NCBI RefSeq assembly: GCF_003096675.1
Contig: NZ_QEKW01000018.1
Coordinates: 1 to 64,000, forward strand
Direction: 5' to 3'
Source: Actinomycetospora cinnamomea
GTDB lineage: Bacteria > Actinomycetota > Actinomycetes > Mycobacteriales > Pseudonocardiaceae
Length of the DNA: 64,000 nucleotides
Made by a program: the position numbers and the translations under genes. Below the pieces are notes generated by a model. The model had not been told where the DNA came from, did no database searches, and saw only the letters and a program-made list of their open reading frames with translations. How positions within the stretch are numbered: the stretch's first letter is position 1; each line of letters opens with the position of its first letter. Shown here piece after piece: positions 26,400 through 45,802 of this stretch.

Positions 26400-26470
26400 C
26401 GGGGGGCAGGTTACGCGGCGGTACACGACGGGCCGCGGCCAGTGGGAGACCGGCGCGCCACCGGTCGGGA

Positions 26471-27721
26471 TCAGGTGCGCAGCAGGTCCTGCCCCAGGAA
26501 GTCCCCTGGTCCGCGGACCCCGGGCAGGGCGAAGAAGAACCCGCCCCCCTCGGCCATGACGTACTCCTCGAGGGGCTCGCCGTCGAGGCGTCCCTGGACC
26601 GCGAGGAATCCGGCCTCCAGGCTGCGCTGGTAGCAGACGAACGCGAGTCCCTGGTCGAGGGCCCCGGCCCCGTCGAAGCCGCGGGTGTAGGAGAAGCCGC
26701 GGCGCAGCAGGAGGCTGCCCGCGGTCTCGGGTGTCCTCGGGTTGGCCAGGCGGATGTGGGCGTCGAGGGGCGTGATCCGACCGTCGGGGTCGGCGCGGTA
26801 GTCCGGCTCGTCGATCTCCGAGGCCCGCCCGAGCGGCGCGCCGCTGAGCTTGTGCCGCCCGATCAGGGCCTCCTGCTCGGCGAGCGGGGTCCGGTCCCAG
26901 AACTCCACGAACATCCGGATGACGCGGACGACGAGGTACGACCCGCCCGCGGTCCAGGCCGGCTCGGGGTCGCCCGCCGCGACCCACACGTAGCGGTCCA
27001 TCAGCGCGGCGTTCGAGGACGTCAGGTTCGCGGTCCCGTCGATGAAGCCGAGGAGGTTGCGCGGCGAGCCGGTCGTCGACTCCCCCGGCGCCGAGCCGCG
27101 CCCGAACCCGTCGAGCACCCACCGCAGGGTCAGCGTGCGCCGCGTCCGGCGCATCAGCTGGCGCAGGGCGAACACGACCGTGTCCGGGTGCCGGGCCTGC
27201 ACGCTGACGAGGACGTCACCGTGGCTGCGGGCCGGGTCGAGGCGGTCATTGGCCAGGAACGGCATCGTCACCAGTTCCCGGGGGCGCAGGGCGGCCAGGC
27301 CGTACCGGTGGTCGAACAGCGAGGCCCCCACCCCGACCACGATCGAGAGATCGTCGGGCGGGGGCTCGGCACCCAGGAGACCCGAGTCCTCGGGGGGCAG
27401 CGCCGGATCCCGGACCCGGGGCGGTCGCCCGGACATGAGCCCGTCGATCTCGTCGGTCAGTTCCCGCAGCATCTCCTCGAGGGCGCCGCGGTCGGGCGCG
27501 AGGCTGGTGAACGAGGCCAGCAGGCCCGAGGCCGGGACCGGCAGGGACGTGATGCCGGTCTGGGTGTGCCCGTGGAAGGGGACGCGATCGGCCGGGCCCC
27601 CGCCCGGTGCCGACCCCGACGAGGACGAGGCGCACCCGGCGAGCAGCGCGCCGCCGCCGAGCGCGGCGCCGGTGGTGAACAGCCGGCGGCGCGACAGCCC
27701 GCCACGGTCGCCGGAGGTCAC
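26471..27721 (-). CDS. efeB: Dyp-type peroxidase EfeB, Tat-exported
   Basis: Heme peroxidase/deferrochelatase of the Efe ferrous-iron system. Seen: twin-arginine signal SRRRLFTTG followed by a hydrophobic core and LLAGC30 (possible lipoprotein cleavage), the distal heme motif GFIDGTANL (GxxDG) and the proximal region DAHIRLANP with the axial His, then RRGFSYTRGF. 416 residues, normal. GTG 27721 overlaps the efeO stop as GTGA. The permease EfeU is not encoded nearby. Confidence 0.93.
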   Translation of the reverse strand: MTSGDRGGLSRRRLFTTGAALGGGALLAGCASSSSGSAPGGGPADRVPFHGHTQTGITSLPVPASGLLASFTSLAPDRGALEEMLRELTDEIDGLMSGRPPRVRDPALPPEDSGLLGAEPPPDDLSIVVGVGASLFDHRYGLAALRPRELVTMPFLANDRLDPARSHGDVLVSVQARHPDTVVFALRQLMRRTRRTLTLRWVLDGFGRGSAPGESTTGSPRNLLGFIDGTANLTSSNAALMDRYVWVAAGDPEPAWTAGGSYLVVRVIRMFVEFWDRTPLAEQEALIGRHKLSGAPLGRASEIDEPDYRADPDGRITPLDAHIRLANPRTPETAGSLLLRRGFSYTRGFDGAGALDQGLAFVCYQRSLEAGFLAVQGRLDGEPLEEYVMAEGGGFFFALPGVRGPGDFLGQDLLRT

Positions 27722-28647
27722 TGGAGGCCCAACACCCCCGGGACCATGGCGACGTCCTCCGACAGTCCGGCGAGCTGGACCTTGAAGGTGTCGACCTGCT
27801 GGGTCGTCACCGTCGGCGCCGGGCACAGCGGCGACGGGTACTCGTCGTTCTCCTGGCAGTACGGCACGAACGACCCGTCGGGCCGTCGCAGCGACGCGAG
27901 GCCCGCGTCGACGTCGGCGAAGCCCTGGTCGATCGCGGGGAGCACGGCGGGCCGGGAGGCCTGCAACGCCGGCCGCAGGAACCCGATGACCGCGACCGAA
28001 CCGTCGATGTTGGCCTGGAAATCGGAGAGGTCGGTCTTGGAGTACCGGTCCTCCTCGCCGGTGATCTTGCCCTGGGACACCTCCTCGATCAGCTCCGCGG
28101 AGCCCCGGGCCATGTCGAGCGCCGGGATGCGCAAGGTCCGGATCTGCTGGTCGAGGGTCTGCAGGTCGGCGTCGAGCTGGTCGGCGAACGGGACGGCGGC
28201 GGCGGTCTGCCCCTGCTCCCAGAGGATGTACTCGATGCGGTGCCACCCGGTGAACTCCGGGTCCTCCACCCCGGCGAAGTCGTCGACCCGGGCGTCGACG
28301 GCGCCGTCGATCTCCTCCACGAGGCCGGCGATCGGCTCGATGCGCTCCCAGCCGACGCGCGAGGGCGCGAACGCCGCCTTGGCGGCCTCCAGGTCGCCCG
28401 CCCGGACCGCGTCGGTGAGGACACGGGTGCCCGCGACCGTGTCGGCGACCTGCTGCCGGACGTAGTCCTCGTACTGCGCGACCGCCTGGTCGATCATCTG
28501 CGTCCGGTCCGGCGCCGCCGGTGCCGCGGCGGGCGCCGCGGGAGCGGGCGGGGCCGGCGGCGCACCCCCGCACGCCGCGAGGACGACGACCGCCGCTCCG
28601 AGGACGCCGACGAGCGGCAGGACCTGGCGGGAACCGGTGCTGGGCAC
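27718..28647 (-). CDS. efeO: EfeO iron-binding lipoprotein (M75 domain)
   Basis: Periplasmic iron-capture component. Signal peptide with lipobox LAAC26, a Pro/Ala linker, and an imelysin/M75 helical domain from about residue 48. The metal motif HxxE is present in GWHRIEYILWE, and a PYCQENDEYPS segment is near the C-terminus. No N-terminal cupredoxin domain is visible, so it is the single-domain form. 309 residues. GAAGGGG precedes GTG 28647. A strong iron box overlaps its promoter (28666-28684), with TAACTT as -10. Confidence 0.92.
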   Translation of the reverse strand: MPSTGSRQVLPLVGVLGAAVVVLAACGGAPPAPPAPAAPAAAPAAPDRTQMIDQAVAQYEDYVRQQVADTVAGTRVLTDAVRAGDLEAAKAAFAPSRVGWERIEPIAGLVEEIDGAVDARVDDFAGVEDPEFTGWHRIEYILWEQGQTAAAVPFADQLDADLQTLDQQIRTLRIPALDMARGSAELIEEVSQGKITGEEDRYSKTDLSDFQANIDGSVAVIGFLRPALQASRPAVLPAIDQGFADVDAGLASLRRPDGSFVPYCQENDEYPSPLCPAPTVTTQQVDTFKVQLAGLSEDVAMVPGVLGLQ

Positions 28648-28665
28648 GTCGCGCCCCTTCCTGTG

Positions 28666-28684
28666 TGAAGTTAGGCTCACCTTA
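28666..28684. promoter_or_regulatory. IdeR/DmdR-type iron box between efeO and the Emb-type gene
   Basis: The 19-mer TGAAGTTAGGCTCACCTTA matches the actinobacterial iron-box consensus (TTAGGTTAGGCTCACCTAA form) at 16 positions. It overlaps -10-like elements on both strands (TAACTT toward efeO, TAGGCT toward the Emb-type gene), so both could be iron-repressed. Confidence 0.75.
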
Positions 28685-28735: not shown

Positions 28736-31700
28736 GTGACACCGGCACGCGGCACCGGCCGCGCCGCGCCCGCGGCCGCGGTCGCCGGGCTCGTCGCCGT
28801 GCTGTGCGCGCTGCTGCTGCCCTTCGCCCCGGTGTCGGTGAACGAGCCCACCGTGCGCTGGCCGGTCGACCCGTCGAGACCGGAGTCGACGTTGCTCACC
28901 CTGACCGCCTACCGGCCGCTCGCGCTCGACCTGCGGTTCAGCTGCGACGTCGCCCGCCAGGCCGGGGCCGAGGGGTCCGGCGTCGTCGTCTCGACCGCGC
29001 TGCCGGGCTCGCCGGAGGCGGGCGTCACCGGGCTGCTCGTCACCGCCGCCGACGGTCGGGTCGCCGTGCGTGCCCTCGACCGCGTGCTGGTCGACGAGCC
29101 GCTGCCCACCGGGCCCTGCGCGTACCGGGTCACCGGCCGCAGCGCCGGTCGCCCCACCGACGTGCGCCCGTCCGGCCCCGGCGGTGGGGCGCGTGCCCCG
29201 GGCGCGTTCGCCGGACCCGGCGACGCGGAGCTCGTGGTCACCCGCGACGGGCGCGAGCTCGCCCGCGCCGCCGACGACCAGCTCCCCGACGTCGACGTCC
29301 TGGTCACCTCGGTCACCACGCTGCCTCCCGACGCCGCCGGGGACCTCGCGGTCCGGCTCCGGGTCGACGACGAGTTCACCAGCAGCCCGACCCCGCTCAA
29401 GAACGTGCTGACCGCGGTGCTCGTGCTCGCCCTGCTGGCCGCGGCCGGCCTCCTCGTGGCCGCCGACCGCACCTCGCCCGAGGCCACCCCGCGGCGCTCC
29501 CGGCGTCCCCGGTGGCCGGGGCGGCCCCGGGTCGTCGACCTCGCCGTGCCGGCCGTGCTGGCGGTGTGGACGTTCGTGGCGCCGGCCACCGACGACGACG
29601 GGTACTTCGCCACGCAGGCCCGCAACGCGGTGCTCTCCGGCGAGGTCGGCAACTACTACCAGTTCTACGACCAGAGCTTCGTCCCGTTCACCTGGGTCTC
29701 CCAGGGCCTGGGCGCCTGGCAGCAGCTCGCCGGGTTCGGTCCGGTCCCGCAGCGGGTCCCGGCGCTGGTCCTCGGTGTGCTCACCTGGCTGGTGCTGCGC
29801 CGCGTCGCCGCGCCGGCCTTCGAGCAGCCGGCGGGGCCGGCGGCTCCGGGTGAGCCGGACGGGCCGGTGGGACGGTGGCGGGCCCGCGCCGGGCCCGTCG
29901 TGCTCGGGGTGGTCTTCCTGGCGTGGTGGGTCCCCTACGACATGGGTGTGCGCCCGGAGGCCGTGGTCGCCCTGTGCGGCGTCGCCGCGATGCACGCCGT
30001 GCTGGTCACCGGGCGCGACCACCGGCTGGCACCGGCCTGGGTGGCGTGCGCGCTCGCCGGGGTGGGGTTCACCGCCCACACGACCGGGGTCACCATGGTC
30101 GCGCCGCTGCTCGCCGGCCTGCCCGCCCTGTGGCCGGTGCTGCGCGTGCCCGGCGCGCGCGTGGCCACGGCCGGCCGGGTCGTCGCCGTGGCCTCGGGGG
30201 CGATGATCGCTCCGCTGCTCGGGTTCGCCGACGGGGCGCTGCGCGACTTCCGGCGCGGGCAGGCGCTCTTCCTGTCGGTGCTGGAGCAGGACGGGTGGAC
30301 CGCGGAGTTCGAGCGGTACGCGTACCTGCTCGACGAGGGTGCGATGGGCAACTTCGCCAAGCGGGCCGCGGTGCTGGCGTGCCTGGTCGCGCTCGCGTGG
30401 TACGCCGTGCTCGCGGTCGCCGCCCGGGCGAGGCACCGTCCGCTGCCGGCCCCGCTGACGCTCGCCGCGACCACCACGGCGCTGTCCTTCGTGGCGCTGG
30501 CCGCGACCCCGTCGAAGTGGACCCACCACTTCGGCGCCCTCGCCGGGGTCGGTCCGGCGTTCCTCGGCGTCCTGCTGGTGACGGCCGTGCCGCTGACCCG
30601 GCGCGTGCTGGACGGGGCGAGACCACCGGGTGGTGTCGTCGCCGCGGCCGCCGGCTCCGTCGTGGCGGCGATCGCGCTGGCCTGGCACGGCCCGAACTCC
30701 TGGCCGTACGCCTGGCTCGACGGCGTGCGCACCCCCCACCAGCCCCCCTCGATCCGCAACGTCGGGCTGGACAGCCCGCTGCTGTGGGCCCTCGCCGTCG
30801 GGCTGGTGGCGCTCGTGCTGGCGTGGCGGTCCCGCGGGAGCGGTGTCGACGCCGCCCGGCGGCACGCACTGTGGGCCCTGCCGATCGTGGTCGTGGTCTC
30901 CCTCGCCGCGACCACCGCCTACACCGTCGGGAGCTTCGGTGTCGCCGCCGTCCGCGGTGTCCCCCCCGGCTCGATGTGGGCCCGGACGACGGCCGACCCG
31001 CTCGGGTCGGGCTGTGGCGCGACCTCGACCATCCGCGTCCTCGATCCCTTCACCGCCCGACCCCTGGCGCCCGCGGGCCTGCCCGCCCCGTCACCACCGG
31101 CGGGTTTCGTGCCCGACGCCGGGTACTACGCGAACAACCGCCCGCAGGGCAGCGTCACCGCGGGCTGGGGCAGCCTCGCCGGCGACGACGCCGGCCCCGC
31201 CGGGCAGGACACCGCCGAGCAGAGCACCGGGGAGATGTCCACCGGGTGGTACGCCCTCCCGGACGCACCCGGGGACGGGTCCACCGTCATCGTGACCGCG
31301 GCCGGGACGCTCGCCGCCGGCAACGAGCTGGTCGCGGAGTACGGGCGACGGACGGGTGCGTCCCCGGCCCCCACCGGCGAGCAGGCGCTCGCCGACACCC
31401 TGCGCAGCCCGTCGTGGCGGACTTTGACGCTGGCGCCGCCCCCCGGGAGCGACGTCGTCCGACTGCACGCCGTGGACCGCACGGGCGATCTCCACGGCTG
31501 GCTGGCGTTCACCGCGCCGGCGCTGGCCCGGCCGGTCGACCTCCGGACCCACCTGCGGGACGGGTTCGGCGCCGACGCCCCCGTCGCCCTCGGCTGGCAC
31601 CTGGCCTTCGCCCATCCGTGCCTGCGGCCGCCCGCTGTCGTCGACGGCATCACCGAGCCACCGGTCGCGGCGATCCTGCGGGTCGACGGGCCTCGCGCCG

Positions 31701-31924
31701 CCCTCGACGACATCGCGTGGCAGCCCGCCCGGGGCGGGGTGTTCGGGCAGGTCGCGCGCAGCCGTTCCGTGCTCGCCCTCGCGACCGTCGGCCCGGTCGA
31801 CCCGGACGTGCGGGTGTACGTGTTCGGCACCCCCCTCGCCCGGGACGCCTACACCCTGACGACCGAGCAGCGGACCGTGCCCGGGGCCCGCGTCGCGATC
31901 AGCGCGCCCCCGGCGCCGAGGTGA
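28736..31924 (+). CDS. Arabinosyltransferase of the EmbA/B/C family (GT53)
   Basis: 1062-residue GT-C membrane enzyme transferring arabinofuranose from decaprenyl-phosphoryl-arabinose. Seen: N-terminal helix then the extracytoplasmic jelly-roll (about 40-215, LQPFAPV-like LLPFAPVSVNEPTVRWP), the catalytic DDDGYF (286-291) with NYYQFYDQSFVPFTW, about 12 further helices, and a C-terminal carbohydrate-binding domain (about 745-1060). GTG 28736 has GAGGATGAGG upstream. It is divergent from efeO across an iron box and followed by a flippase and GT2 gene. The polymer may be arabinogalactan/arabinan or a distinct iron-linked glycan. Confidence 0.9.
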   Translation: MTPARGTGRAAPAAAVAGLVAVLCALLLPFAPVSVNEPTVRWPVDPSRPESTLLTLTAYRPLALDLRFSCDVARQAGAEGSGVVVSTALPGSPEAGVTGLLVTAADGRVAVRALDRVLVDEPLPTGPCAYRVTGRSAGRPTDVRPSGPGGGARAPGAFAGPGDAELVVTRDGRELARAADDQLPDVDVLVTSVTTLPPDAAGDLAVRLRVDDEFTSSPTPLKNVLTAVLVLALLAAAGLLVAADRTSPEATPRRSRRPRWPGRPRVVDLAVPAVLAVWTFVAPATDDDGYFATQARNAVLSGEVGNYYQFYDQSFVPFTWVSQGLGAWQQLAGFGPVPQRVPALVLGVLTWLVLRRVAAPAFEQPAGPAAPGEPDGPVGRWRARAGPVVLGVVFLAWWVPYDMGVRPEAVVALCGVAAMHAVLVTGRDHRLAPAWVACALAGVGFTAHTTGVTMVAPLLAGLPALWPVLRVPGARVATAGRVVAVASGAMIAPLLGFADGALRDFRRGQALFLSVLEQDGWTAEFERYAYLLDEGAMGNFAKRAAVLACLVALAWYAVLAVAARARHRPLPAPLTLAATTTALSFVALAATPSKWTHHFGALAGVGPAFLGVLLVTAVPLTRRVLDGARPPGGVVAAAAGSVVAAIALAWHGPNSWPYAWLDGVRTPHQPPSIRNVGLDSPLLWALAVGLVALVLAWRSRGSGVDAARRHALWALPIVVVVSLAATTAYTVGSFGVAAVRGVPPGSMWARTTADPLGSGCGATSTIRVLDPFTARPLAPAGLPAPSPPAGFVPDAGYYANNRPQGSVTAGWGSLAGDDAGPAGQDTAEQSTGEMSTGWYALPDAPGDGSTVIVTAAGTLAAGNELVAEYGRRTGASPAPTGEQALADTLRSPSWRTLTLAPPPGSDVVRLHAVDRTGDLHGWLAFTAPALARPVDLRTHLRDGFGADAPVALGWHLAFAHPCLRPPAVVDGITEPPVAAILRVDGPRAALDDIAWQPARGGVFGQVARSRSVLALATVGPVDPDVRVYVFGTPLARDAYTLTTEQRTVPGARVAISAPPAPR

Positions 31925-31992: not shown

Positions 31993-33348
31993 ATGAGCGT
32001 CTCCCCCGCGGCGACGAACGACGGGCGCCTGCGGGCGCCCGTGCGCGCCGGGCTGCTGGGCAAGGCGGCCGAGGCGGTCACCCTCCTGCTGCTGGCCGTC
32101 GTCGTGCCGCGCACCCTCGGTCCGGCCGACTACGGCCGGTTCTCGGTGGCCCTGACGGTGGTCGCGGTCGGCTCGGTCGCGATGACGTTGGGGGGCGCCA
32201 CCCTGCTCGCCCGCTACGTCCCGGCCGCGGCGGCGCCGGAACGCCCGGCGCTGGCCCGGGCGCTGACCCTGCGGCTGGCCCGTCACCGGGCGTGGGCGTG
32301 GGCGGCGCTGGCGGTGGTCGCCGCGGCGCTCGCGGTCGCGGACCCGGCGACGTTCCCGCCGCTGGTGACGGCGTTCGTCCTCCTCGCCCTCGCCCTCAAC
32401 GTCGCGGCCACGCTCGCGCTGCAGGCCGATCTCGGGCTCGGCCGCACCGGACCGTGGTGCGCGCGCTATCCGGTGCAGAACGCCGCGCTCGTGGTGGCGG
32501 TGATCGTGCTCCACGACGCCGCGGGCTCGACCGGGGCGGCCGGGGCGATCCTCGTGGCGGCCGTGGTGGGCGCCGGCCTCGCGGCCGTCGCGTCCCGTCC
32601 CCTCCTCACGGCGCGGCGGCACCCCGTGGTGGCGTGGCCCGAGGGCGCACCACGCTTCGGGCTCCTCCAGGCCGGGAGCGGGGTGCTGGTCCAGCTCACA
32701 CAGCGGGGCGGGATCGTCGTGGTGGCGGTCGTCGGCGGGGCCGGGGCGCAGACCGGGTTCGCGGCCCTGGCGCTGGGCGTCGCGCTCGCCGCCACCTATG
32801 CGGTGGTGCAGGTCTTCACCGTCTCGTTGCCGACGCTCGCCCGCCGCGACGACGACACGCTCGACGCGGCCGAGGAGGCCGAGGGCGCCGAGGGGGCCGA
32901 GGGGGCCGAGGCCGCCCTGCGCCGCCTCGCCGGACGGCTGCTGGTCGTCGTGCTGGCCGGCGCCGCCGTCGCGGCGCCCCTGCTCGACGTCGTGACCCCG
33001 GCGGTGTTCGGCGCCGGGTTCGCGGCGGCGTCCGCGGCCTTCGTCCCGGCCCTGGCTCTGGTCGTCCTCGCCCCGGTGAACGCCCTCGCCGTGCAGGCCG
33101 CGGCGCTGCGGCTGCGACCCCGGGCGACCCTGCAGACGGCCCTGGGCGGGTTCGTGGTCTTCGGGGCGGCGGCCGCCCTGGCCGTGCCCGCCTGGGGGGC
33201 GGCGGGCGCGACGTCCGCGGCCCTGTTGGGGGCCGCCGGGTCGGTCGCGGTCGCGCTCCGGGTCCTGCCCGGCGCCGTGGGGACCCGGCTCGCCGTGGCC
33301 TCGCCGGCCGGCGCCGCGGCCGTCGTCGCGCTCGGGGTGCTGACGTGA
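31993..33348 (+). CDS. Polysaccharide flippase-like membrane protein (MOP superfamily)
   Basis: 451 residues, about 12-14 transmembrane helices. The N-terminal VPRTLGPADYGRFSVALTVV motif is characteristic of Wzx/MVF-type oligosaccharide exporters. An acidic cytoplasmic loop (about 293-308) is encoded by a 9-bp tandem repeat. ATG 31993 lies 68 bp after the arabinosyltransferase stop. The stop overlaps the next GT2 start as GTGA. It probably flips a lipid-linked glycan made by the neighbouring transferases. Substrate unknown. Confidence 0.8.
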   Translation: MSVSPAATNDGRLRAPVRAGLLGKAAEAVTLLLLAVVVPRTLGPADYGRFSVALTVVAVGSVAMTLGGATLLARYVPAAAAPERPALARALTLRLARHRAWAWAALAVVAAALAVADPATFPPLVTAFVLLALALNVAATLALQADLGLGRTGPWCARYPVQNAALVVAVIVLHDAAGSTGAAGAILVAAVVGAGLAAVASRPLLTARRHPVVAWPEGAPRFGLLQAGSGVLVQLTQRGGIVVVAVVGGAGAQTGFAALALGVALAATYAVVQVFTVSLPTLARRDDDTLDAAEEAEGAEGAEGAEAALRRLAGRLLVVVLAGAAVAAPLLDVVTPAVFGAGFAAASAAFVPALALVVLAPVNALAVQAAALRLRPRATLQTALGGFVVFGAAAALAVPAWGAAGATSAALLGAAGSVAVALRVLPGAVGTRLAVASPAGAAAVVALGVLT

Positions 33349-34238
33349 CCGGCCCGCGCATCTCGGTCGTGGTCCCGACCCGTGACCGGCCCGACCGCCT
33401 CGCGGTCTGCCTCGCCGCGCTGGAGGACCAGGACGCGACCGACCTCGAGATCGTGGTCGTCGACGACGCCTCGCGCGACGCCCGCGCCGTCGCGGACGTC
33501 GTGGCACGCGCCCCCCGCGCGCGGCTCGTGGCCGGCGCGGGCCGGGGTCCGGCGGCCGCCCGCAACGCCGGGGTCCGTGCCGCCCGGGCGCCGGTGGTCT
33601 GCTTCACCGACGACGACTGCGAACCCGTGCCCGGGTGGGCGCGGGCCCTCGCGGCACGGATCGCCGACGGCGCCGAGGCGGCGGCGGGACCGACCCGCAA
33701 CGGCCGCCCCGACAGCGTGCTGGCCGCCGCCTCCCAGACGATCGCGAGCCACCTCGCCGAGGCGGGCGTCGACCCCGTCACGCAGCGGATGCGGTTCGCC
33801 CCCACCAGCAACCTCGCGTGCCGCGCCGACGTCTGTCGCGCCGTGCCGTTCGACGAGCGCTACCCGCTGGCCGCGGGCGAGGACCGGGACTGGTGCGAGC
33901 GCCTCACCGGGGCGGGCCACGCGCTGGTCTTCGTGCCCTCCGCCCTCGTCCGCCACCACCAGGTGCTCTCGCCCACCGGGTTCTGGCGCCAGCAGGTGCG
34001 CTACGGCCGCGGCGGCTACCGCTTCCACACCGACGCCCGCCGCCACGACCGGCCCGGACGCGGCGGCCCCCGCCTCGAGTCCCCCGGGTTCTACACCGGG
34101 CTGCTGCGCCGCGGCTTCGCCGCGGGGCCCCGGGCCGGGCTGCTGGTCGGCGTGGCCCAGGTGGCGACGGCCTGGGGCATGGGGCTGGAGGCCGCCGGAT
34201 CGATCATCCCGGGCCGGCGCACGGGCCCGGCGGCCTGA
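33345..34238 (+). CDS. GT2 family glycosyltransferase
   Basis: 297 residues, GT-A fold. Seen: SVVVPTRDRPDRLAVCLAAL at the N-terminus, VVVDDASRD, the metal-binding TDDDCEP (residues about 87-93), then GEDRDWCERLTGAGH with the ED(W) catalytic-base motif and a C-terminal helical region. No N-terminal transmembrane segment. Translationally coupled to the flippase gene. It probably adds a sugar to the lipid-linked substrate. Confidence 0.88.
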   Translation: MTGPRISVVVPTRDRPDRLAVCLAALEDQDATDLEIVVVDDASRDARAVADVVARAPRARLVAGAGRGPAAARNAGVRAARAPVVCFTDDDCEPVPGWARALAARIADGAEAAAGPTRNGRPDSVLAAASQTIASHLAEAGVDPVTQRMRFAPTSNLACRADVCRAVPFDERYPLAAGEDRDWCERLTGAGHALVFVPSALVRHHQVLSPTGFWRQQVRYGRGGYRFHTDARRHDRPGRGGPRLESPGFYTGLLRRGFAAGPRAGLLVGVAQVATAWGMGLEAAGSIIPGRRTGPAA

Positions 34239-36722: not shown

Positions 36723-37687
36723 CGCGCCCCCTCTGCTGCCCGCTCCCGCTGCGATCGGCGCCGGTCCCGGAGGTGGACCACCACCCCGGCCGGCACCGAC
36801 GCGACCGCGGTGAGGTGGTGCACCGCGTGCAGCCCGACGCCGACGACGGCCTCCCGGGCCCCGCGGCGGCGGGCGAGGAGGGCGTAGAAGTCGCGGTTGA
36901 GGCCGACCAGGACTCCGACCGCGCCCGCCGCGACCCGCGGGCGCCGCGCCGCCAGGGCGGACACGGCGAGCGTGCAGGCCAGCGCGCTGAGCCGGTGCCG
37001 CCAGCCGAGGTTCAGTGCCGTCGAGGCGCGCCCGGCCCGCAGCTGCCCGGACCTCAGCAACAGGGCCACCCACGGCACCCCGCGGCGGGCGAAGTCGGTG
37101 GCGACCATCGTCCGCAGGGTCCACGCCTTGAGGTGCGTGCCCTGGATCGCGGGGTCGAGCTCGATCCGGGCGCCGGCCGCCACCAACCGGGCACCGAGGT
37201 CGACGTCCTCGACCGAGGGGTGCGGGAACCGGTCGCCGTCGAAGCCGCCGACGGCCAGGAAGGCGTCCCGCCGCACCGCGCCCAGGCCCGACCAGAACGT
37301 CTCCGCCGGGCCCCCGGCCTGGTGGTGGACGTGGTGGTGCAGCAGGTTGCGGAAGGCGGCGACGGTGCCGCCGGCCGACGGGCTGTCGTCGTAGGACCCG
37401 AACACGGCGGTCAGCTCGGGTCGCGCGCGGAAGCGCTCCCCGATGCGCCGGAGGGCGTCGGCGTGGATCTCCACGTCGGCGTCGACGAACACCACGACAT
37501 CGCCGGCCGCGCGCCGGGCCCCGAGGTTGCGGGCCGCGCAGACCGGCAGCCTGTGGGCGTGCTCCCCGTCGTCCCGGCCGTCCACCACGACGACCTCGTC
37601 GGCGCCGGCACGCTCGATCGCCGCGACCGCGCGGGGCAGCGTCGCCGGCCGGTCGGTCGCCGGCACGACCACGGACAGGGTGGGCAT
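36719..37687 (-). CDS. GT2 family glycosyltransferase with C-terminal membrane region
   Basis: 322 residues. Seen: LSVVVPATDRPATL, VVVDGRDDGEH, DXD-type VFVDADVEI, VGGFDGDRFPHPSVEDVDLG (acceptor/ED motif), then two or three hydrophobic segments after about residue 220. ATG 37687 has no clear ribosome-binding site, but TAGGGT (a -10 hexamer, 37696-37701) lies 8 nt upstream, suggesting a leaderless mRNA. An iron box is about 43 bp above that -10. It begins the GT2-Gfo-AP coupled unit. Confidence 0.87.
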   Translation of the reverse strand: MPTLSVVVPATDRPATLPRAVAAIERAGADEVVVVDGRDDGEHAHRLPVCAARNLGARRAAGDVVVFVDADVEIHADALRRIGERFRARPELTAVFGSYDDSPSAGGTVAAFRNLLHHHVHHQAGGPAETFWSGLGAVRRDAFLAVGGFDGDRFPHPSVEDVDLGARLVAAGARIELDPAIQGTHLKAWTLRTMVATDFARRGVPWVALLLRSGQLRAGRASTALNLGWRHRLSALACTLAVSALAARRPRVAAGAVGVLVGLNRDFYALLARRRGAREAVVGVGLHAVHHLTAVASVPAGVVVHLRDRRRSQRERAAEGAR

Positions 37688-37729
37688 CGGCACGGACCCT
37701 AGTGCCACGCCCGTGGCGCCCCGGAACGG

Positions 37730-37748
37730 GTAGGTGAGGCACACCTTG
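37730..37748. promoter_or_regulatory. Candidate iron box upstream of the GT2-Gfo-AP unit
   Basis: GTAGGTGAGGCACACCTTG matches the iron-box consensus at about 14 of 19 positions and holds a perfect AGGTG/CACCT dyad with a 5-nt centre. It lies between the GT-C stop and the GT2 start on the minus strand. Confidence 0.6.
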
Positions 37749-37772
37749 GTCGCCGGCGGCACGCCCCCGGGA

Positions 37773-39236
37773 TCAGGGGGCCGGGCAGCCGACCGCGAGC
37801 ACGGTCCAGCGCTCGGTCGTCGCCAGGACCCGCGCGTCGAGACCACCGGCGGCCGGATCCCCGGTGCGCAGGATCACGACGCCCGGCCGACCGCCCGACG
37901 AGTAGCCCACGGAGGCCAGCGGGACGTCGAGGGTCCACGACAGTCCCGGCCGGGCCTGCAGGTCGATCGGTCTCGTGGCGTCGATGGCCAGGGTCCCGCA
38001 TCGGAGCAGGGCGTCGCGGCCGCCGGCGAGTGCGACGGCACGGTCCAGGTCCTCCTCGAGGCGCGCGCGTTCCCCGGCCTCGGCGACCTGCCGCGGCAAC
38101 CAGCCGACCCGCGGCAGCGCGAACGGCACCATCGCGGCGATCAGGAGCACCGCCACCGCCAGCCGGAGGCCCCGGTGGCCGATCGCGGCCAGCGAGCAGG
38201 CGATCCCGGTGCCCGCCAGGACGCACAGCACCGCGCCGGGTGGGGCGAGGAAACGGCTCAGCGCGGCGTAGCCGAGCAGGCTCGCCATCGCGGCCACCAT
38301 CGCGATCCAGACCAGCGCCGCGACCGCCAGCACCACGGGCGTCCACGCCCGGCGGCGGACCGACCAGGACACCCCCACCGCCGCCGCCACCCAGACCGGC
38401 ACCAGCACCACGCCGCCCAGCTGGGTGCTGGTGGCCACCAGCCGTTCCGCCGCATCACCCTCGAGGACCTGCGCCCGGGTCGCCCCGCTCCAGGGGTCGC
38501 CGGAGATCAACCAGTCCCCGCCGAGCCACAGCACGGGCGCCGTGGCGACGACGGCCACCAGCAGCGGGAGGAGCACCGGCCAACGGTCGCGGTGCGCGAC
38601 CAGCAGCCACACCGAGTAGAGCACCAGGAAGGGCCAGGCCTCCGGCCGCAGCAGGCACGCCGCCGCGCCGAGCGCCACGGCGACGCCGGGCCGGCGGTCG
38701 AGATGGCAGAGCACCGCCCCCAGGCACAGCGCGACCAGCAGCGGCTCGACGTTGCCCTGCAGGACGAGCCGGATCCAGCGGGACTCGGCGTCCGGGCCGA
38801 GCAGCAGCGCCAGCACGGCGACCAGGCCCGCGACGGGCCCGACGAACCGCGCGGACCCGTCCGGCCCGAGCCCGGCGGCCGTCCGGGCGGCGAGCCGGTA
38901 GGTCAGGCCCATCGCGACGAGACCACCCGCGCGGGCCAGTACCAGCCACAGCTCCGGTGCGGCATCACCCGCGTAGGACAGCGGGGTGGTGACCAGGACC
39001 GGCAGCGGCTTCCAGGTCGGTCCCCCCGCCGTGCTCACCGTCCCGCGCGTGGCCTCGCGCCCCCACACGAGCCAGGCCCACGGGTCGTATCCGAGCGCCG
39101 CCGGCACCCCGAGGGAGGCGGCGGCGAGCGCCACGCTCCCGGCGAGCAGCAGCAGCGTGGCCACCCGGGGCCGGCGGAACGCCACCCGGTGGGCGACCGG
39201 GGCGGGGGTCGCGCCGGTCCGCGAGAGGGACGTCAC
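37773..39236 (-). CDS. GT-C fold membrane glycosyltransferase-like protein
   Basis: 487 residues, about 10-11 transmembrane helices. The first extracytoplasmic loop carries GYDPWAWLVWGREATRG, the acidic/aromatic loop typical of polyprenyl-phosphate-sugar-dependent GT-C enzymes, and AACLLRPEAWPFL is a second conserved block. A C-terminal soluble segment follows about residue 390. GTG 39236 is 37 bp after fbpC on the same strand, so it may share the iron-regulated fbpC transcript. Donor and acceptor unknown. Confidence 0.8.
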   Translation of the reverse strand: MTSLSRTGATPAPVAHRVAFRRPRVATLLLLAGSVALAAASLGVPAALGYDPWAWLVWGREATRGTVSTAGGPTWKPLPVLVTTPLSYAGDAAPELWLVLARAGGLVAMGLTYRLAARTAAGLGPDGSARFVGPVAGLVAVLALLLGPDAESRWIRLVLQGNVEPLLVALCLGAVLCHLDRRPGVAVALGAAACLLRPEAWPFLVLYSVWLLVAHRDRWPVLLPLLVAVVATAPVLWLGGDWLISGDPWSGATRAQVLEGDAAERLVATSTQLGGVVLVPVWVAAAVGVSWSVRRRAWTPVVLAVAALVWIAMVAAMASLLGYAALSRFLAPPGAVLCVLAGTGIACSLAAIGHRGLRLAVAVLLIAAMVPFALPRVGWLPRQVAEAGERARLEEDLDRAVALAGGRDALLRCGTLAIDATRPIDLQARPGLSWTLDVPLASVGYSSGGRPGVVILRTGDPAAGGLDARVLATTERWTVLAVGCPAP

Positions 39237-39273: not shown

Positions 39274-40308
39274 CTAGGACGGCCCGAGCACGGTCACCGG
39301 GCCCCGCACCGCCACGCGCACACGGTCTCCCGTCCGCCAGGCCGCCGAGCCGGGGTTGCGGCTCCGCAGGCGCAGGCCGCCCGCCAGCTCGAGACGCACG
39401 AGCTGGTCGTGGCCGAAGTAGGAGCGACCGAGGACGACCGCCTCCGCCGCGTTCCCCGGCGGGGCACCGGCCTCGTCCGGGCCGATGACCAGACCCTCGG
39501 GGCGCAGCACGATCTCGACCGGGCCGCGCAGCGCCGTGTCGGCCGGGAACCGGCCCAGCGGGCACTCGGCGACCCCGTCGGCGGCCGTCCCGGACACGAC
39601 GTCGGCATCGCCGAGGAACTCCGCCACCCACCGGGTCGCGGGGTCGCCGTACACCGTCTGCGGGGGACCGACCTGCTCGATCCGCCCGTCGCGCATCACG
39701 GCCACCACGTCGGCGAGCGACAGCGCCTCCTGCTGGTTGTGCGTCACGAGCAGGGCGCTCGCGCCCGCGGCGCGCAGGACGCCCGCGACCTCCTCGCGCA
39801 GCTCCGCGCGGAGGCCCTCGTCCAGCGCGGCGAACGGCTCGTCGAGCAGCACCACGTGGGGCTCCGTGGCCAGCGCGCGGGCGAGGGCGATCCGCTGGCG
39901 CTCGCCCCCGGACAGCTCGTGGGGGAAGGCCCCGGCGCGGTCCGCGAGCCCGACGAGCTCGAGGCACTCCTCGACGCGGCCGGCGCGCGGCCCACCGAAC
40001 TCGAGGTTCGCCCGCACCGACAGGTGGGGGAAGAGAGCCCCGTCCTGGAACACCATGCCGATGCGACGCTTGTCGGGCTCCACCCAGACGCCCTCGCCGG
40101 CGACCGCGAGCCCCCCGATGGCGACGGAGCCGGCGTCGGGCACCTCGAAACCGGCGATCAGGCGCAGGAGCGTGGTCTTGCCCGATCCGCTCGGCCCGAC
40201 CAGCGCGACCAGCTCGCCCGACCCGACCCGCAGCGACGCCCCGGCCACCGCCGGGTGACCGCCGAACGCCTTCTCGAGGTCCACGGCGTCGATCGTGGAG
40301 GCCCTCAT
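39274..40308 (-). CDS. fbpC: ABC transporter ATPase, ferric-iron type (FbpC-like)
   Basis: Energises the ferric importer encoded divergently by fbpA-fbpB. 344 residues: Walker A GPSGSGKTT (38-46), Q-loop VFQDGALFPHL, signature LSGGERQRIALARAL, Walker B VVLLDEPFAALD, switch His in LLVTHNQQEA, and a C-terminal TOBE-like regulatory domain (about 235-344). The ATG at 40308 directly abuts an iron box. TAGGGT 9 nt upstream suggests a leaderless transcript. Molybdate or thiamine specificity is possible by family, but the iron box argues for iron. Confidence 0.9.
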   Translation of the reverse strand: MRASTIDAVDLEKAFGGHPAVAGASLRVGSGELVALVGPSGSGKTTLLRLIAGFEVPDAGSVAIGGLAVAGEGVWVEPDKRRIGMVFQDGALFPHLSVRANLEFGGPRAGRVEECLELVGLADRAGAFPHELSGGERQRIALARALATEPHVVLLDEPFAALDEGLRAELREEVAGVLRAAGASALLVTHNQQEALSLADVVAVMRDGRIEQVGPPQTVYGDPATRWVAEFLGDADVVSGTAADGVAECPLGRFPADTALRGPVEIVLRPEGLVIGPDEAGAPPGNAAEAVVLGRSYFGHDQLVRLELAGGLRLRSRNPGSAAWRTGDRVRVAVRGPVTVLGPS

Positions 40309-40310: not shown

Positions 40311-40329
40311 TTTGGCTACCCTAGCCTAT
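40311..40329. promoter_or_regulatory. Iron box overlapping divergent fbpC and fbpA promoters
   Basis: TTTGGCTACCCTAGCCTAT contains the perfect dyad GGCTA/TAGCC. Its reverse complement matches the iron-box consensus at 13-14 of 19 positions. It covers -10-like TAGGGT for fbpC and TAGCCT for fbpA, so one repressor could silence both. Confidence 0.65.
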
Positions 40330-40400: not shown

Positions 40401-41513
40401 ATGCGAGACACCCTCCTCCGCCCCCGGGTGCTGGTGCCTGCGGTCGCCCTCGCGGCCGTGGCCGTGGTCGTGGTGGTCGTGGCCGTGGTCGGCGTCGGCG
40501 GGGAGGACCCGGCGCCCGCGACGGCGTCGCCGACACCGGCCGGCGGGGAGACGCCCGAGGTGGTCACCGCGGGGGTCCCGTTCGCCGACCGCCTGGTCGT
40601 CTACAACGGACGCTCGCACTACGGCGACGAGCAGGTGTTCCGCGAGTTCGAGGCGCGGACCGGGGTCCGCATCGAGCTGCGCGGAGGCACCGCCGGAGAG
40701 CTCGGCGAGCGGCTGGCCCAGGAGGGCGCGGACACCCCGGCGGACCTGCTGATCACCACCGATCTGGCCAACCTGTGGCGGGCCGAGCAGCAGGGCCTGC
40801 TCCAGCCGGTGACCAGCGAGACGCTGCGCACCCAGGTGCCCGAGAGGCTGCACGCCGACGACGGCGCCTGGTGGGCGGTCTCCACCCGGCTCCGGGTGCC
40901 CCTGGTGGCCACCGAGCGCGTCCGGCCCGAGGCCGTGACCGGCTACGAGAGCCTGGGCGACCCGGCCTTCGCCGGGCGCACCTGCCTGCGCACGTCCAAC
41001 AGCGAGTACAACCAGTCGCTGGTCGCCGACATGATCGCCAAGCGGGGGCCCCAGGCCACCGAGGCCCTCCTGCGCTCCTGGATGGCCAACGACCCCGACA
41101 TCCTGGGCTCCGACGGCGAGATGCTCGCGGCGATGGCGGCCGGCGACTGCGACGTCGGCCTCGCCAACCACTACTACCTGGGGCGGGCCCTGAAGGACGA
41201 CCCGTCCTTCCCCGTCGCCCCCGCCTGGCCGGACCAGGGAGGGGCGGGCGCCCACGCCAACGTCTCCGGGGTGGGCGTGGTGCGCGGCTCGGACGCGGTG
41301 CCGACCGCCGTGGCGCTGATGGAGTGGCTCACCTCGCCGCCCGCCCAGGAGCAGATCGTGTCGCGCAGCGAGTTCGCCGCGAACCCGCAGGTGCCCCCGC
41401 CGGCCCACATCGCGTCGTGGGCCGACGTGCGGATCGACCCGATCGCGGTCGAGGAGGCCGGGCCGCTGCTGGACGAGGCGGTCGCGATGATGCTGGCCGT
41501 CGGATGGCGGTGA
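40401..41513 (+). CDS. fbpA: Ferric-iron ABC transporter substrate-binding protein (FbpA-like)
   Basis: 370 residues. An N-terminal hydrophobic helix (about 10-33) without a lipobox cysteine, so it may stay anchored by an uncleaved signal. Then a Thr/Pro linker and a periplasmic-binding fold from about 60 (DRLVVYNGRSHYGDEQVF). The iron-ligand tyrosine pair appears in GLANHYYLGRAL, and NSEYNQSLVADM is a further family block. ATG 40401 with GGGAG upstream. Coupled to fbpB. Confidence 0.88.
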   Translation: MRDTLLRPRVLVPAVALAAVAVVVVVVAVVGVGGEDPAPATASPTPAGGETPEVVTAGVPFADRLVVYNGRSHYGDEQVFREFEARTGVRIELRGGTAGELGERLAQEGADTPADLLITTDLANLWRAEQQGLLQPVTSETLRTQVPERLHADDGAWWAVSTRLRVPLVATERVRPEAVTGYESLGDPAFAGRTCLRTSNSEYNQSLVADMIAKRGPQATEALLRSWMANDPDILGSDGEMLAAMAAGDCDVGLANHYYLGRALKDDPSFPVAPAWPDQGGAGAHANVSGVGVVRGSDAVPTAVALMEWLTSPPAQEQIVSRSEFAANPQVPPPAHIASWADVRIDPIAVEEAGPLLDEAVAMMLAVGWR

Positions 41514-43195
41514 CGACGCCGCCCCCCATCGCGTCGACGGCGCCACCGCCCCGGCCGCGCCGGCGCACGCCGAGATGGGCGGTGCTGGGCGTGCTCACGG
41601 CGCTGGCGGTGGCCGGGCCGCTGGTCGCGCTGCCGCTGAGCTTCCTCGCCGGGGACGACGGTGTGGACCGGATCGCCCTCGCGCTGCTGCCCGGGGCCCT
41701 GGGACGCAGCGTGCTGCTCGGGGTCGGGGTCGCGATCGGCACGCTCGTCGTCGGTGGCGGGCTCGCGGTGCTCGTCTCGTTCTGGGACTTCCCCGGCCGG
41801 CGGTGGCTCGACTGGGCCCTCGTCCTGCCGCTGGCCATGCCCGGGTACGTCCTGGTGTTCGTGCTGGTCGGGCAGCTCGGGTACGCGAACCCGCTGCAGA
41901 GCAGCCTGTTCGGGGCCGGGCTGGACGTGCCGGGCCTGCGCGGGCCGGCCGGGGCGATCGCGGTCCTCACCGCGGTGCTCTACCCCTACGTCTACGTCCT
42001 CGGACGCAGCGCGTTCCTCGGCCAGTCGCGGCAGTCGATGGAGGCGGCCCGCAGCCTCGGTCGCAGCCACGGGCAGGCCGTCCGCTCGGTGGCCCTGCCC
42101 CTGGCCCGCCCGGCCCTGGCCGCCGGTGCCGCGCTCGCGGTGATGGAGGCCCTGGCCGACTTCGGGGCGGTGAGCCTCCTGGGCTACCAGGCGCTGACCG
42201 ACGCGATCTACCGGCTCTGGTTCGGGGCGTTCGACCGGGCCGCCGCGTTGCAGCTGGCGACGGTGCTCGTCGGGCTGGCCCTGCTCATGGTGGTCGTCGA
42301 GCGCCTGCTGCGCGGCCGGGCCCGCTACCACCAGGCGCTCGCCCGCGGCGACACCGTCACGCCCCGCCGACTGCGCGGCGCCCGCGCCGCCGTGGCGACC
42401 GCGGTGCCCTGTCTCCTGCTCGCCGTCGTGTTCGCCGTCCCGGTCGCCCAGCTGCTGGCCTGGTCGGTCGAGACGGTGCTGGCGGACCGGGTCGGCGCGG
42501 GCCTCGCCGAGGCCGCGCTCAACACGTTGCTGCTCGGGCTGGCGGCCGCGTTCCTCGCCGTGATCACGTCGACCGTCATCGTGTACGGCCAGCGGGTCGC
42601 GCCCTCCCGGCTCGGGACGGCCGCCGCCCGCCTGGCCTCGGTGGGCTACGCCGTCCCGGGCACGGTCATCGCGGTGGCCATCTACGTGCCGCTGGTGTGG
42701 GTCGATCGCCGGCTCATCGACCTCGCCCAGGGCACGTTCGGCACCACCCTCGGGCTCGTGTTCACCGGCACCGCTCTCGGGCTGCTGCTGGCCTACCTCG
42801 TCCGGTTCCACGCGCAGGCGTTCTTCGCCGTCGATGCGCGGATGGGGCGCGTCCACCCCGATCTCGACGACGCCGCCCGGTCGCTGGGCGCGGACCGGGG
42901 GCGGGTGCTCGCCGAAGTGCACCTCCCCCTGCTGCTGCCCGGGCTGCTCACCGCGGCGCTGCTCGTCATGGTGGAGGTCATGAAGGAGCTCCCGGCGACG
43001 GCCCTGCTCCGCCCGCTCGGAGGCGACACGCTGGCGATCATGGCGTGGGAGGCGACGAAGGACTCCCGGTTCGACACCGCGGCGCTGCCGTCGCTGCTGA
43101 TCGTCGCCGTGGGCCTCGTCCCGGTCCTGCTGCTCATCCGGCTCTGGGGTCGCTCCGGCCCGGCCGCGGCCACCGGTCGGGTACCGCCCGGGTAG
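41504..43195 (+). CDS. fbpB: Ferric-iron ABC transporter permease (FbpB-like, fused two-domain)
   Basis: 563 residues with two binding-protein-dependent permease domains in one chain (about 60-275 and 300-555), roughly 12 helices in total. Each half has an EAA loop: MEAARSLGRSHGQAVRSVALP and LDDAARSLGADRGRVLAEVHLP. This fused arrangement is usual for FbpB. ATG 41504 and GTG 41510 both overlap the fbpA stop. The latter gives the common GTGA overlap. The 3' end overlaps the convergent flavoprotein gene by 62 bp. Confidence 0.9.
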   Translation: MAVTTPPPIASTAPPPRPRRRTPRWAVLGVLTALAVAGPLVALPLSFLAGDDGVDRIALALLPGALGRSVLLGVGVAIGTLVVGGGLAVLVSFWDFPGRRWLDWALVLPLAMPGYVLVFVLVGQLGYANPLQSSLFGAGLDVPGLRGPAGAIAVLTAVLYPYVYVLGRSAFLGQSRQSMEAARSLGRSHGQAVRSVALPLARPALAAGAALAVMEALADFGAVSLLGYQALTDAIYRLWFGAFDRAAALQLATVLVGLALLMVVVERLLRGRARYHQALARGDTVTPRRLRGARAAVATAVPCLLLAVVFAVPVAQLLAWSVETVLADRVGAGLAEAALNTLLLGLAAAFLAVITSTVIVYGQRVAPSRLGTAAARLASVGYAVPGTVIAVAIYVPLVWVDRRLIDLAQGTFGTTLGLVFTGTALGLLLAYLVRFHAQAFFAVDARMGRVHPDLDDAARSLGADRGRVLAEVHLPLLLPGLLTAALLVMVEVMKELPATALLRPLGGDTLAIMAWEATKDSRFDTAALPSLLIVAVGLVPVLLLIRLWGRSGPAAATGRVPPG

Positions 43196-44687
43196 GCCGG
43201 CGCGGCAGGATCGGGGCGTCCCGTCCGGTGCGCGCGTGCTGCTCGGCCGCGCCCTCCTCGTGGTAGTCGGCCTCCACGTTCACCGCCCAGATGTCGTGGC
43301 CGGCCCCGAACAGGACGTTCTCCACCGCCAGCGCGGCGGTGAGCATCGAGTGGTCCTGGTTGTTGTAGCGGTGCTGACCGTTGCGCCCGATCGGGTGCAC
43401 GTTGGTGGCGTGCTCGTCCAGCCAGGCACGCAGGACCGCGACGTTGGCCCGGTACTCGTGGTCGTAGACGGGGTAGGCCTTCGGCATCCGCACCACGTAG
43501 CCGGCCTCGACCCCCTCGGGGTCGACGAGCCCCAGCTCGGCCAGCTCGCGGGTTCCGAGGGCCACCAGATCGGCGTCCGGAAGCTCCCAGAGGTCGTCGC
43601 CCTCGAACACGAAGTACTCGAGGCCCAGGCAGGTCCGGCCGGGCTTGACCATCGACTCCGACCAGGCGCCGAAGTTCTGGATGCGGCCGACCCGCACCTG
43701 CGGGGCGTGCACGTAGATCCAGTTGTCCGGGAAGGCGGACCGCTCGGGCACCACCAGGGCCACGGTCAGGAAGTCCCGGAAACCGAGGGCGTCGGCGGCC
43801 GCGCGCACCCGGGGTGGCGGCGGGGGGTCCATCGCGCGCACCAGATCGGGCAGCGGCATCGACGAGAACACCTCGCCGCACCGGTAGGTGGTCACGGCGC
43901 CGTCGTCCGTGGAGGCCTCGACGCCGTGGACCCGGCCGTCGCGGTGCCGGATCCTCGTCACGGTCTGCTCCAGCGCGACCTTGCTGCCGGCGGCCTCGAC
44001 CAGTTCGCGGCACCGCTCCCACATCATCCCCGGTCCATGACGGGGATAGTGGAACTCCTCGATCAGCGAGGTGATCGCGGTGTCACGCCGCCCGGGTCGC
44101 AGCCCGCTCCACACCGCGGTCGCCAGCGACACGTCCTTGATCCGCTGGGAGGCCCAGTCCGCCGCGATGTCGGTGGCCGGTACCCCCCACACCTTCTCGT
44201 TGTACGTCTTGAAGAAGTGCCGGTAGAGCCGTCGCCCGAACCGCGCCGCCACCCAGCCCTCCAGGTGGGACTGGTCGGCCGGCGGCCGGATCCGGGCCCG
44301 CACGTAGGACAGCGTGCAGAGCAGTGCCTCGACCGGCCCCAGCGTGCGGAGCGCCCCGACCGGACGCAGGGGGTAGTCGTAGAAGCGGTCCCGGTAGAGG
44401 ATGCGGCTCTGCCGCGGGCGGAGCAGGAAGTCGCGCTCGCCCAGGATCTCGTGCCACAGCGCCCGGACGCGCGGCACCTTGGTGAAGAAGCGGTGGCCCC
44501 CGATGTCGAAGCGCCAGCCGTCGCGCTCGACGGTGCGGCTGATCCCGCCGACGACGTCGTCGGCCTCGAGCACCGTGGCGGGGCGCTCGTGGCGGCCGAG
44601 CTCGTAGGCGGCCGTGAGCCCCGCGGGACCGGCACCGATGATCAGGATCCCGGTACCGGGCTGCGTGCCCTCGGGCTCAGATCGCAC
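43134..44687 (-). CDS. FAD-dependent UDP-galactopyranose mutase-like flavoprotein
   Basis: 517 residues. N-terminal FAD motif [17 protein letters not shown]-doublet and [19 protein letters not shown], then [44 protein letters not shown] and a C-terminal [15 protein letters not shown] flavin-contact block. This family (UGM/protoporphyrinogen-oxidase-like) is common in polysaccharide clusters. GTG 44687 overlaps the upstream epimerase stop by 11 bp. Catalysis (ring contraction or sugar oxidation) is not established. Confidence 0.85.
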
Positions 44688-45642
44688 GGGGTGCCACCGA
44701 CCGCTCGGGACCCGCCCGGAGCCACTCGATCGTCCGGCGCAGCCCCTCACCCAGGCCGACCGCCGGCTCCCAGCCGAGCTCCCGCCGGGCGAGCGTGATG
44801 TCGGGGCGGCGTACCGTCGGGTCGTCCTCCGGGCGCGGGACGAACCGGAGGGTGCCCGGCACGCCGACGAGGTCGAGGATCCCGCGGGCCAGGTCCTCGA
44901 TGGAGACCTCGTGCGGGTTGCCGATGTTGACCGGACCGGCCAGGGGCGAGTGCAGCAGCCGCACGCAGCCCTCGACGAGGTCGTCGACGTACTGGATGGA
45001 CCGGGTCTGGCGGCCGTCGCCGGCCACGGTCAACGGCTCGCCCGCCAGCGCCTGGCGGATGAAGGTGGGCACGGCGCGCCCGTCGTCGGGCCGCATCCGC
45101 GGGCCGTGCGTGTTGAAGATGCGCACGATCGCGGTGTCCACCGCCTGGGACCGCCGGTAGGCCATGGTCATCGCCTCGGCGAACCGCTTCGCCTCGTCGT
45201 AGACCCCGCGCGGGCCGACCGGGTTGACGTGTCCCCAGTAGCTCTCCGGCTGCGGGTGGACCTGGGGGTCCCCGTAGGCCTCCGAGGTGGAGGCGAGCAG
45301 GTACCGCGCCTTCTTCTCCTTGGCCAGCCCCAGGGTGTGCAGCGTCCCGATCGACCCCACCTTGAGGGTCTCGATCGGCATCCGCAGGTAGTCGATCGGC
45401 GAGGCCGGGGACGCGAAGTGGAGCACGACGTCGACGTCGCCGACGACGTGCACGAAGTCGGTGACGTCGGCGCGGACGAACCGGAACGGCCCGATCTCGG
45501 CGAGGTGCTCGACGTTGCGGGGCGAGCCGGTGCTCAGGTCGTCCAGGCACAGCACGCTGTAGCCCTCGCGGATCAGCCGCTCACACAGGTGCGAGCCGAG
45601 GAACCCCGCCCCTCCGGTGACGACCGCTCGTGGCCGTGGCAC
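44677..45642 (-). CDS. UDP-glucuronate decarboxylase (UDP-xylose synthase)-like epimerase
   Basis: 321-residue extended SDR. NAD motif [10 protein letters not shown] (9-18), [21 protein letters not shown] (118-125) and catalytic Y148-DEA-K152 in [11 protein letters not shown]. The SPASPxxY and [11 protein letters not shown] signatures are those of UXS, which makes UDP-xylose from UDP-glucuronate. Rossmann NDP-sugar epimerases are the alternative. It starts the UXS-flavoprotein unit, downstream of an iron box. Its presence implies a pentose or related sugar in the local glycan. Confidence 0.87.
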
Positions 45643-45758
45643 GCCCCCCTCACCCGACCGTGGAGGACGGGCGCGGACCGCGGCACGACCGCGTCCGCGG
45701 CGTCCCGGAGCGACGTGACATCAAGGGACCCACTTCCGCGAGGCGCCGGTTTGTCCAG

Positions 45759-45777
45759 TAAAGGTAGCCTATCCTCG
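45759..45777. promoter_or_regulatory. Candidate iron box upstream of the UXS-flavoprotein unit
   Basis: TAAAGGTAGCCTATCCTCG on the plus strand. Its reverse complement has the AGGATAGGCTACC core and matches the consensus at about 13 of 19. It lies 117 bp above the UXS start on the minus strand, over a TAGGCT -10-like hexamer. The leader between contains a hairpin (45673-45698). Confidence 0.55.
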
Positions 45778-45802
45778 CCTCGAGGTGCCCTCCCGGCTCC
45801 GA

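Follow-up and report, generated by a model that had tools for sequence, protein, structure and literature searches.

A gene cluster in Actinomycetospora cinnamomea predicted to be horizontally mobile and to couple ferric iron import with surface glycan synthesis

RESULTS

Gene content of the island

We studied an island of about 19 kb located between lpqU and mazG in Actinomycetospora cinnamomea, within a stretch of 64,000 nucleotides of contig NZ_QEKW01000018.1 (assembly GCF_003096675.1; hereafter, the window), in which genes for ferric iron uptake are interleaved with genes for surface glycan synthesis. The identities of the island genes were defined by gene calling and family scans (Pfam and NCBIfam), and all the genes named in the initial annotation of this DNA were found at the positions and on the strands given there.

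Among the iron genes, efeB (26471..27721, minus strand) encodes a DyP-type peroxidase (PF04261 and PF20628; TIGR01412 at 414 bits against a cut-off of 428) and efeO (27718..28647, minus) an M75 (imelysin) protein (PF09375; NF041757 at 265 against a cut-off of 270; match to the PDB EfeO 7wgu at 1e-53). The ferric importer consists of fbpC (39274..40308, minus), an ABC ATPase with a TOBE domain (PF00005 and PF08402, no NCBIfam equivalog above cut-off), fbpA (40401..41513, plus), a FutA/FbpA-type ferric-binding protein recognized by PDB sequence matches and a pair of adjacent tyrosines (NHYY), and fbpB (41582..43195, plus), a putative permease without Pfam match, assigned by position and homology.

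The glycan genes start with an Emb-type arabinosyltransferase (28736..31924, plus) carrying the N-terminal, transferase, and C-terminal Emb domains (PF04602, PF14896, and PF17689). It is followed by a Wzx-like flippase (wzx, 31993..33348, plus; PF13440 at 22.6 bits against a cut-off of 23, with homologs in other copies of the cluster) and by the family-2 glycosyltransferase gt2a (33345..34238, plus; PF00535). On the minus strand, there are pde (34243..35772), a phosphodiesterase of the NPP/alkaline phosphatase superfamily (PF01663), gfo (35775..36722), a Gfo/Idh/MocA oxidoreductase (PF01408 and PF22725), and a second family-2 glycosyltransferase, gt2b (36719..37762; PF00535), whose true start, judged from the sequence, probably lies near 37687 rather than at the annotated end. 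No PDB sequence match was found for pde and, because its structure model is middling (predicted local distance difference test, pLDDT, of 61), the fold matches support the superfamily only. The gtc product (37773..39236, minus) had no family match; for its model (pLDDT 90, built from an alignment of 27 sequences), Foldseek gave ArnT, AftA, and AftB as matches, and a second structure comparison gave Pmt4, ArnT, and others. It is thus predicted to be a membrane glycosyltransferase of the GT-C fold, which would transfer sugars. The island ends with two minus-strand genes: flavo (43134..44750), a UGM-like flavoprotein of the PRK07208 family (NF005548 at 755.8 bits, cut-off 389; UGM match of the N-terminal part, 3e-18), and sdr (44677..45642), a predicted short-chain dehydrogenase/reductase that resembles UDP-xylose synthase (UXS1, 7e-103; no NCBIfam equivalog above cut-off).

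As the initial annotation had claimed, fbpC and gtc lie on the same strand, 37 bp apart. The divergent spacers measure 88 bp (efeO/emb) and 92 bp (fbpC/fbpA), and 160 bp separate sdr from mazG. We also considered that the island could be the ordinary (housekeeping) arabinan locus and rejected it: the genome has six emb genes, five of which sit together on their own contig (C6), apart from the island gene (on C18), which is 38% identical to its nearest paralog.

The island replaced the efe operon of the genus

The initial annotation described the island as inserted between neighboring genes. We compared the site in 15 loci of the 17 available relatives of the same genus (G013 was left out and G004 had no mazG match). 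In all 15, efeO and efeB are already present between mazG and lpqU, an interval of about 3.5–4.4 kb; thus, for this genus, a plain insertion between adjacent genes is ruled out and the island is better described as a replacement. FTR1/EfeU (PF03239) is present in 17/17 relatives and directly adjoins mazG in the 16 with a mazG match. Conversely, the A. cinnamomea draft genome (97% complete, 50 contigs) gave no PF03239 match, its only M75 gene is the island efeO, and the island EfeO and EfeB are 37–47% identical to the genus copies, against 57–99% for lpqU, tpr, eno, and mazG. Taken together, these sequence comparisons indicate that the genus efe operon gave way to a foreign island, about 19 kb long.

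Contamination or misassembly was ruled out by the genus-typical lpqU and mazG that flank the island inside the same window, and is further countered by a Pseudonocardia metagenome-assembled genome (MAG), 40_S54, bearing gtc-gt2b-gfo on a 3.2-kb contig at 57%, 76%, and 68% identity. The island-type EfeB is nearest (63–67%) to those of seven genomes of the same order and another family, none of which has FTR1, and of G106, which has it. In one genome of the same order and another family (G430; L085, 8608–10664), island-type efeO and efeB likewise lie between lpqU and mazG and, for this reason, the site appears to be a regular location of iron genes. As a side observation, one in-frame TGA was reported in 8/17 genus mazG matches, that of A. 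cinnamomea included (L010–L017).

A conserved core is found in distant bacteria

No gtc match (E ≤ 1e-10) was found in the 17 other genomes of the genus, and A. cinnamomea was the only positive genome among 100 relatives. In a draw of 394 genomes of the class, gtc was present in four, its own included. A contig scan with the alignment of four GT-C sequences retrieved 56 loci, mostly from Solirubrobacterales/Thermoleophilia, in which we counted fbpA in 8, fbpB in 6, gt2b and gfo in 5, pde in 3, and flavo in 27.

The phosphodiesterase is more selective, and the comparisons point to it as the specific marker gene of the cluster. Among the 394 genomes of the class it is found in A. cinnamomea only; it occurs in 7/296 genomes of a phylum draw (A. 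cinnamomea and one distant paralog included) and in 11/269 of the class of G723, three of which were previously counted. In 10 of 14 other pde genomes fbpA adjoins pde, including 5/5 of the close matches of the phylum draw. The tally comprises 13 genomes from the pde draws and L145; G500 (28% identity, several such copies in the locus) was left out, and L134 and G919, as well as L152 and G723, were assumed to be the same genome on the basis of matching hits.

In locus L178 (genome G613), all ten genes wzx, gt2a, pde, gfo, gt2b, gtc, fbpC, fbpA, fbpB, and flavo have the same order and orientation as in the window. These comparisons indicate that the ten genes are the conserved core of the cluster, which crosses class boundaries. 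The L178 fbpC (~7992–9054) was matched as two pieces, which could be a frameshift or an assembly error. Emb, EfeO, and EfeB had no clear tblastn match in the 56 GT-C loci and 14 later loci, and UXS was not found in the other copies either; these genes were added locally and lie outside the core. The pentose-containing polymer put forward in the initial annotation is unsupported for the core, because it rests on UXS and Emb, not found in other copies.

Two further gene types were observed around related loci: another M75 (EfeO-type) gene near one cluster copy (L179:18696–19853), and glucose/sorbosone dehydrogenase-family genes (PF07995) in GT-C/fbpA loci L136, L138, and L141.

The ferric importer belongs to two clades

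FbpA matched 28 PDB sequences, the best being FutA 2pt1 (7.5e-68). Most of the 28 have names that refer to iron binding or iron transport; for 6g7n, YfuA, and sfuA, the name gives just the family or the gene. The adjacent tyrosines are retained in 20/20 full-length homologs; the partial FbpA of L110 was excluded from this count and from the tree. On these grounds FbpA is a clear predicted ferric-binding protein of the elemental-iron (FutA-like) type. The fbpB homologs have about 11–13 hydrophobic stretches by a crude count and adjoin fbpA in every fetched locus with fbpB. Relatives of fbpB are present in 6/100 relative genomes (A. cinnamomea included) and in 0/17 of the other genus members; five fetched fbpB loci have no gtc.

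The FbpA of L114, L177, L178, L179, and L193 is 58–67% identical to that of the window, whereas in L134, L145, L152, L180, L190, and L194 the identity is 21–28%. Coherently, the midpoint-rooted FbpA tree has two clades (supports 0.999 and 1.0), both of which also include fbpA from loci without glycan genes. The phosphodiesterase splits less sharply, with 59–72% identity to the window in L177–L179 and L193 and 47–63% in the second FbpA group. Since the same glycan genes accompany both FbpA clades, the transporter was linked to them at least twice, or swapped with the linkage kept. Of all the arguments for a functional link between importer and glycan genes, we give this one the most weight.

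Two same-family loci (L108 of G056 and L110 of G054) carry fbpABC of the wider FbpA clade of the window, near flavoprotein-like (30–31%, weak) and epimerase-like (29–30%) genes, together with further strong iron boxes.

Predicted iron boxes at the island promoters

According to PMC10317159, the 19-bp box of IdeR/DmdR1 has the consensus TTAGGTTAGSCTAACCTAA. A search for the 19-base box in its strict form, allowing for at most three mismatches, gave no match in the window. The degenerate box TWAGGTTAGSCTMACCTWA, at the same tolerance, matched at one place in the 64 kb, 28666–28684, on both strands; two such matches were reached in 0/100 shuffles. We then scored the window with a matrix built from the 16 published DmdR1 sites of Table 1 of PMC7174319, and the four top distinct sites all fell at island promoter regions. 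These predicted boxes (given without strand) lie between efeO and emb (28666..28684; 26.8 bits, the best of the window), in the divergent fbpC/fbpA promoter (40311..40329; 16.0 bits), after the gtc stop and ahead of the likely start of gt2b (37730..37748; 14.8 bits; at the same place in L114 and L178), and upstream of sdr-flavo (45759..45777; 11.5 bits), the last being a possible box whose score, taken by itself, could arise by chance. The top score in 60 Markov simulations was 13.07 bits, exceeded by three of the island boxes, and the mean number of sites of at least 10 bits was 0.05.

Extending the scan to 20 cluster loci, we found 13 boxes of at least 12 bits against 0.2 expected, with at least one in 9/20 loci. 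Twelve are intergenic and one is coding (L141). The intergenic ones precede gt2b (five loci), gtc, flavo, wzx (with a small open reading frame between), or the fbp genes; L178 has four, one each before flavo, fbpA/fbpC, gt2b, and wzx. For a count by gene, we considered 17 clusters, window included, and a limit of 200 nt, crediting divergent promoters to both genes. Boxes of at least 8 bits were found near fbpA in 11/12 cases, gt2b in 10/15, fbpC in 7/13, gtc in 5/12 (without the L113 entry, 10.7 at 1428, which is spurious because the match is truncated where the contig ends), and flavo in 4/9. Near the operon-internal genes there were none (pde 0/15, gfo 0/17, and gt2a 0/12; 0/44 overall). In a random-window control, in which real sites are included, 3.4% of windows reached 8 bits. 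As further controls, the efeU promoter has a box in 15/15 genus loci, loci with window-type efeOB in 7/8, and fbp loci without glycan genes in 4/5.

Among the 56 GT-C loci, boxes of at least 12 bits were found in 4/8 with fbpA, in 0/1 with gt2b-gfo only, and in 0/23 GT-C/flavoprotein loci without fbpA; loci with neither fbpA nor flavoprotein had weak boxes in 2/24 (13.2 and 13.4 bits). In one GT-C/fbp locus, the gene adjoining fbpC encodes a repressor of the DtxR type that includes a FeoA domain (L161:19263–19949).

DISCUSSION

A proposed module coupling iron import and glycan synthesis

We consider it probable that the island contains a horizontally mobile module, repressed by iron through an IdeR/DtxR-type regulator, which couples the import of elemental ferric iron to the synthesis of a dedicated surface glycan. 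The co-inheritance of importer and glycan genes, as judged from their linkage across classes and the two transporter clades, is certain enough; adding the boxes at glycan promoters, their co-regulation by iron is likely. When iron is short, a putative IdeR/DtxR-type repressor would leave the boxes. The GT2 enzymes could then use sugars that the Gfo/Idh protein and the flavoprotein have prepared to assemble a lipid-linked glycan, Wzx would flip it, and GT-C, plus Emb in this genome, may extend or attach it outside the cell. EfeO/EfeB and FbpA would capture Fe(III), and FbpBC would import it in place of EfeU. As its most likely role, we favor that the glycan retains or channels iron at the wall to serve FbpA, EfeO, and EfeB. 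Tentatively, and with well under even confidence, it could be described as an immobilized siderophore: a wall-bound, iron-repressed, Fe(III)-binding polymer feeding receptors of the FbpA/FutA type in bacteria that lack a classical outer membrane, encoded by a class-crossing cassette able to replace EfeUOB.

Several observations weigh against the coupling of import and glycan synthesis. GT-C and the flavoprotein often occur without iron genes, with 23 such loci lacking fbpA, and fbpA was not seen in the fetched stretch of 4/14 pde genomes (G904, G882, G959, and G894); the contigs of G904 and G882 are 4 and 11 kb long, and G959 and G894 have ample flanks. No box of at least 12 bits was found in 11/20 cluster loci, nor in 4/8 fbpA-bearing loci of the GT-C scan; at the wzx promoter, boxes of at least 8 bits were found in 0/9 cases within 200 nt, the wzx box of L178 lying farther out. 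The linkage of EfeOB, Emb, and UXS was observed only in A. cinnamomea and was not found in the other copies. Moreover, the counts refer to related genomes, many of them MAGs, and not to independent events. The co-inheritance proposed for the locus is favored by copies of the cluster that come with fbpABC in distant classes; these 23 loci and four pde genomes speak against it. The iron-limitation-responsive envelope polymer of the initial annotation is partly supported: the island boxes and the recurrence with fbpABC lean in its favor, and the four pde genomes and the 23 GT-C/flavoprotein loci, which have neither fbpA nor boxes, lean against it.

Alternative explanations

Two alternatives are live rivals. 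Iron shortage could trigger a remodeling of the surface (adhesion, biofilm, shielding, or receptor exposure) by a glycan that never touches iron, with fbpABC merely sharing the signal. This would account for iron boxes standing at glycan and iron promoters alike and for the pde genomes without fbpA; however, the linkage to the importer across classes and in two FbpA clades exceeds what shared regulation needs, and we regard this explanation as possible and clearly less probable than coupling to import. It appears unlikely, although worth considering, that GT-C transfers the glycan onto iron uptake lipoproteins, such as EfeO, FbpA, or other exported proteins. The fold likeness to protein-modifying enzymes that could suggest it is common to the whole GT-C superfamily, and the top Foldseek rank went to ArnT. 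Furthermore, Wzx-like flippases are more usual for oligosaccharides or polymers, which counts against this rival.

A secreted glyco-siderophore, i.e., a small diffusible glycan-based chelator imported via FbpABC, would fit the iron-box control, which resembles that of siderophore clusters in PMC7174319. However, no chelating-group enzymes appear among the family matches of the island proteins and FbpA belongs to the elemental-iron type, making this explanation improbable. We give even less credit to a coincidence, with iron and glycan genes gathered in one genomic island but serving no common function: some accretion did occur, as Emb, UXS, and EfeOB were found in no other copy, but the identical ten-gene order of L178, the 10/14 linkage, and the boxes at glycan promoters argue against mere neighborhood.

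Relation to known systems

The module that we propose to couple ferric import and glycan synthesis shares parts with several known systems. Like EfeUOB, the island has EfeO (M75) and EfeB (DyP), which stand at the efe position of the genus with an iron box in front, just as the genus efeU promoter has one; unlike in EfeUOB, EfeU/FTR1 was not found in the genome, EfeOB diverge from the genus copies, and FbpABC is added. FbpA, with its FutA match and tyrosine pair, and the TOBE-domain ATPase recall FbpABC/FutABC, but here the importer is set in a glycan cluster, and fbpC faces away from fbpAB and continues into gtc. The flippase-like protein, the GT2s, GT-C, and the nucleotide-sugar-type enzymes are those of Wzx-type lipid-linked glycan clusters, which differ in that the present one has iron boxes at promoters, an NPP-like phosphodiesterase marker, and no full match to a named pathway. 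The three Emb domains are shared with mycobacterial arabinan synthesis, from which the divergence and separate location of the island emb set it apart.

Finally, the predicted 19-bp boxes at the island promoters are like those of IdeR/DmdR1 regulons. According to PMC12161575, the Streptomyces coelicolor DmdR1 regulon comprises homologs of efe and has a site next to murA2, a peptidoglycan gene; thus, the control of an envelope gene by iron is not novel in itself. What differs is that the boxes here precede a dedicated glycan cluster tied to a ferric importer. No description of the cluster was found in the literature searched, with most subscription journals outside its coverage, and such a cluster is new as far as our searches show.

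In these bacteria, little is known about the gathering of Fe(III) at the wall ahead of a siderophore-free receptor. With a conserved mobile cluster that combines iron boxes, glycan enzymes, and, usually, a ferric importer, a role of the wall glycan can be tested directly. The locus also shows an iron uptake system exchanged for a different one at the same chromosomal address, and suggests that A. cinnamomea builds a special surface sugar when iron is short.

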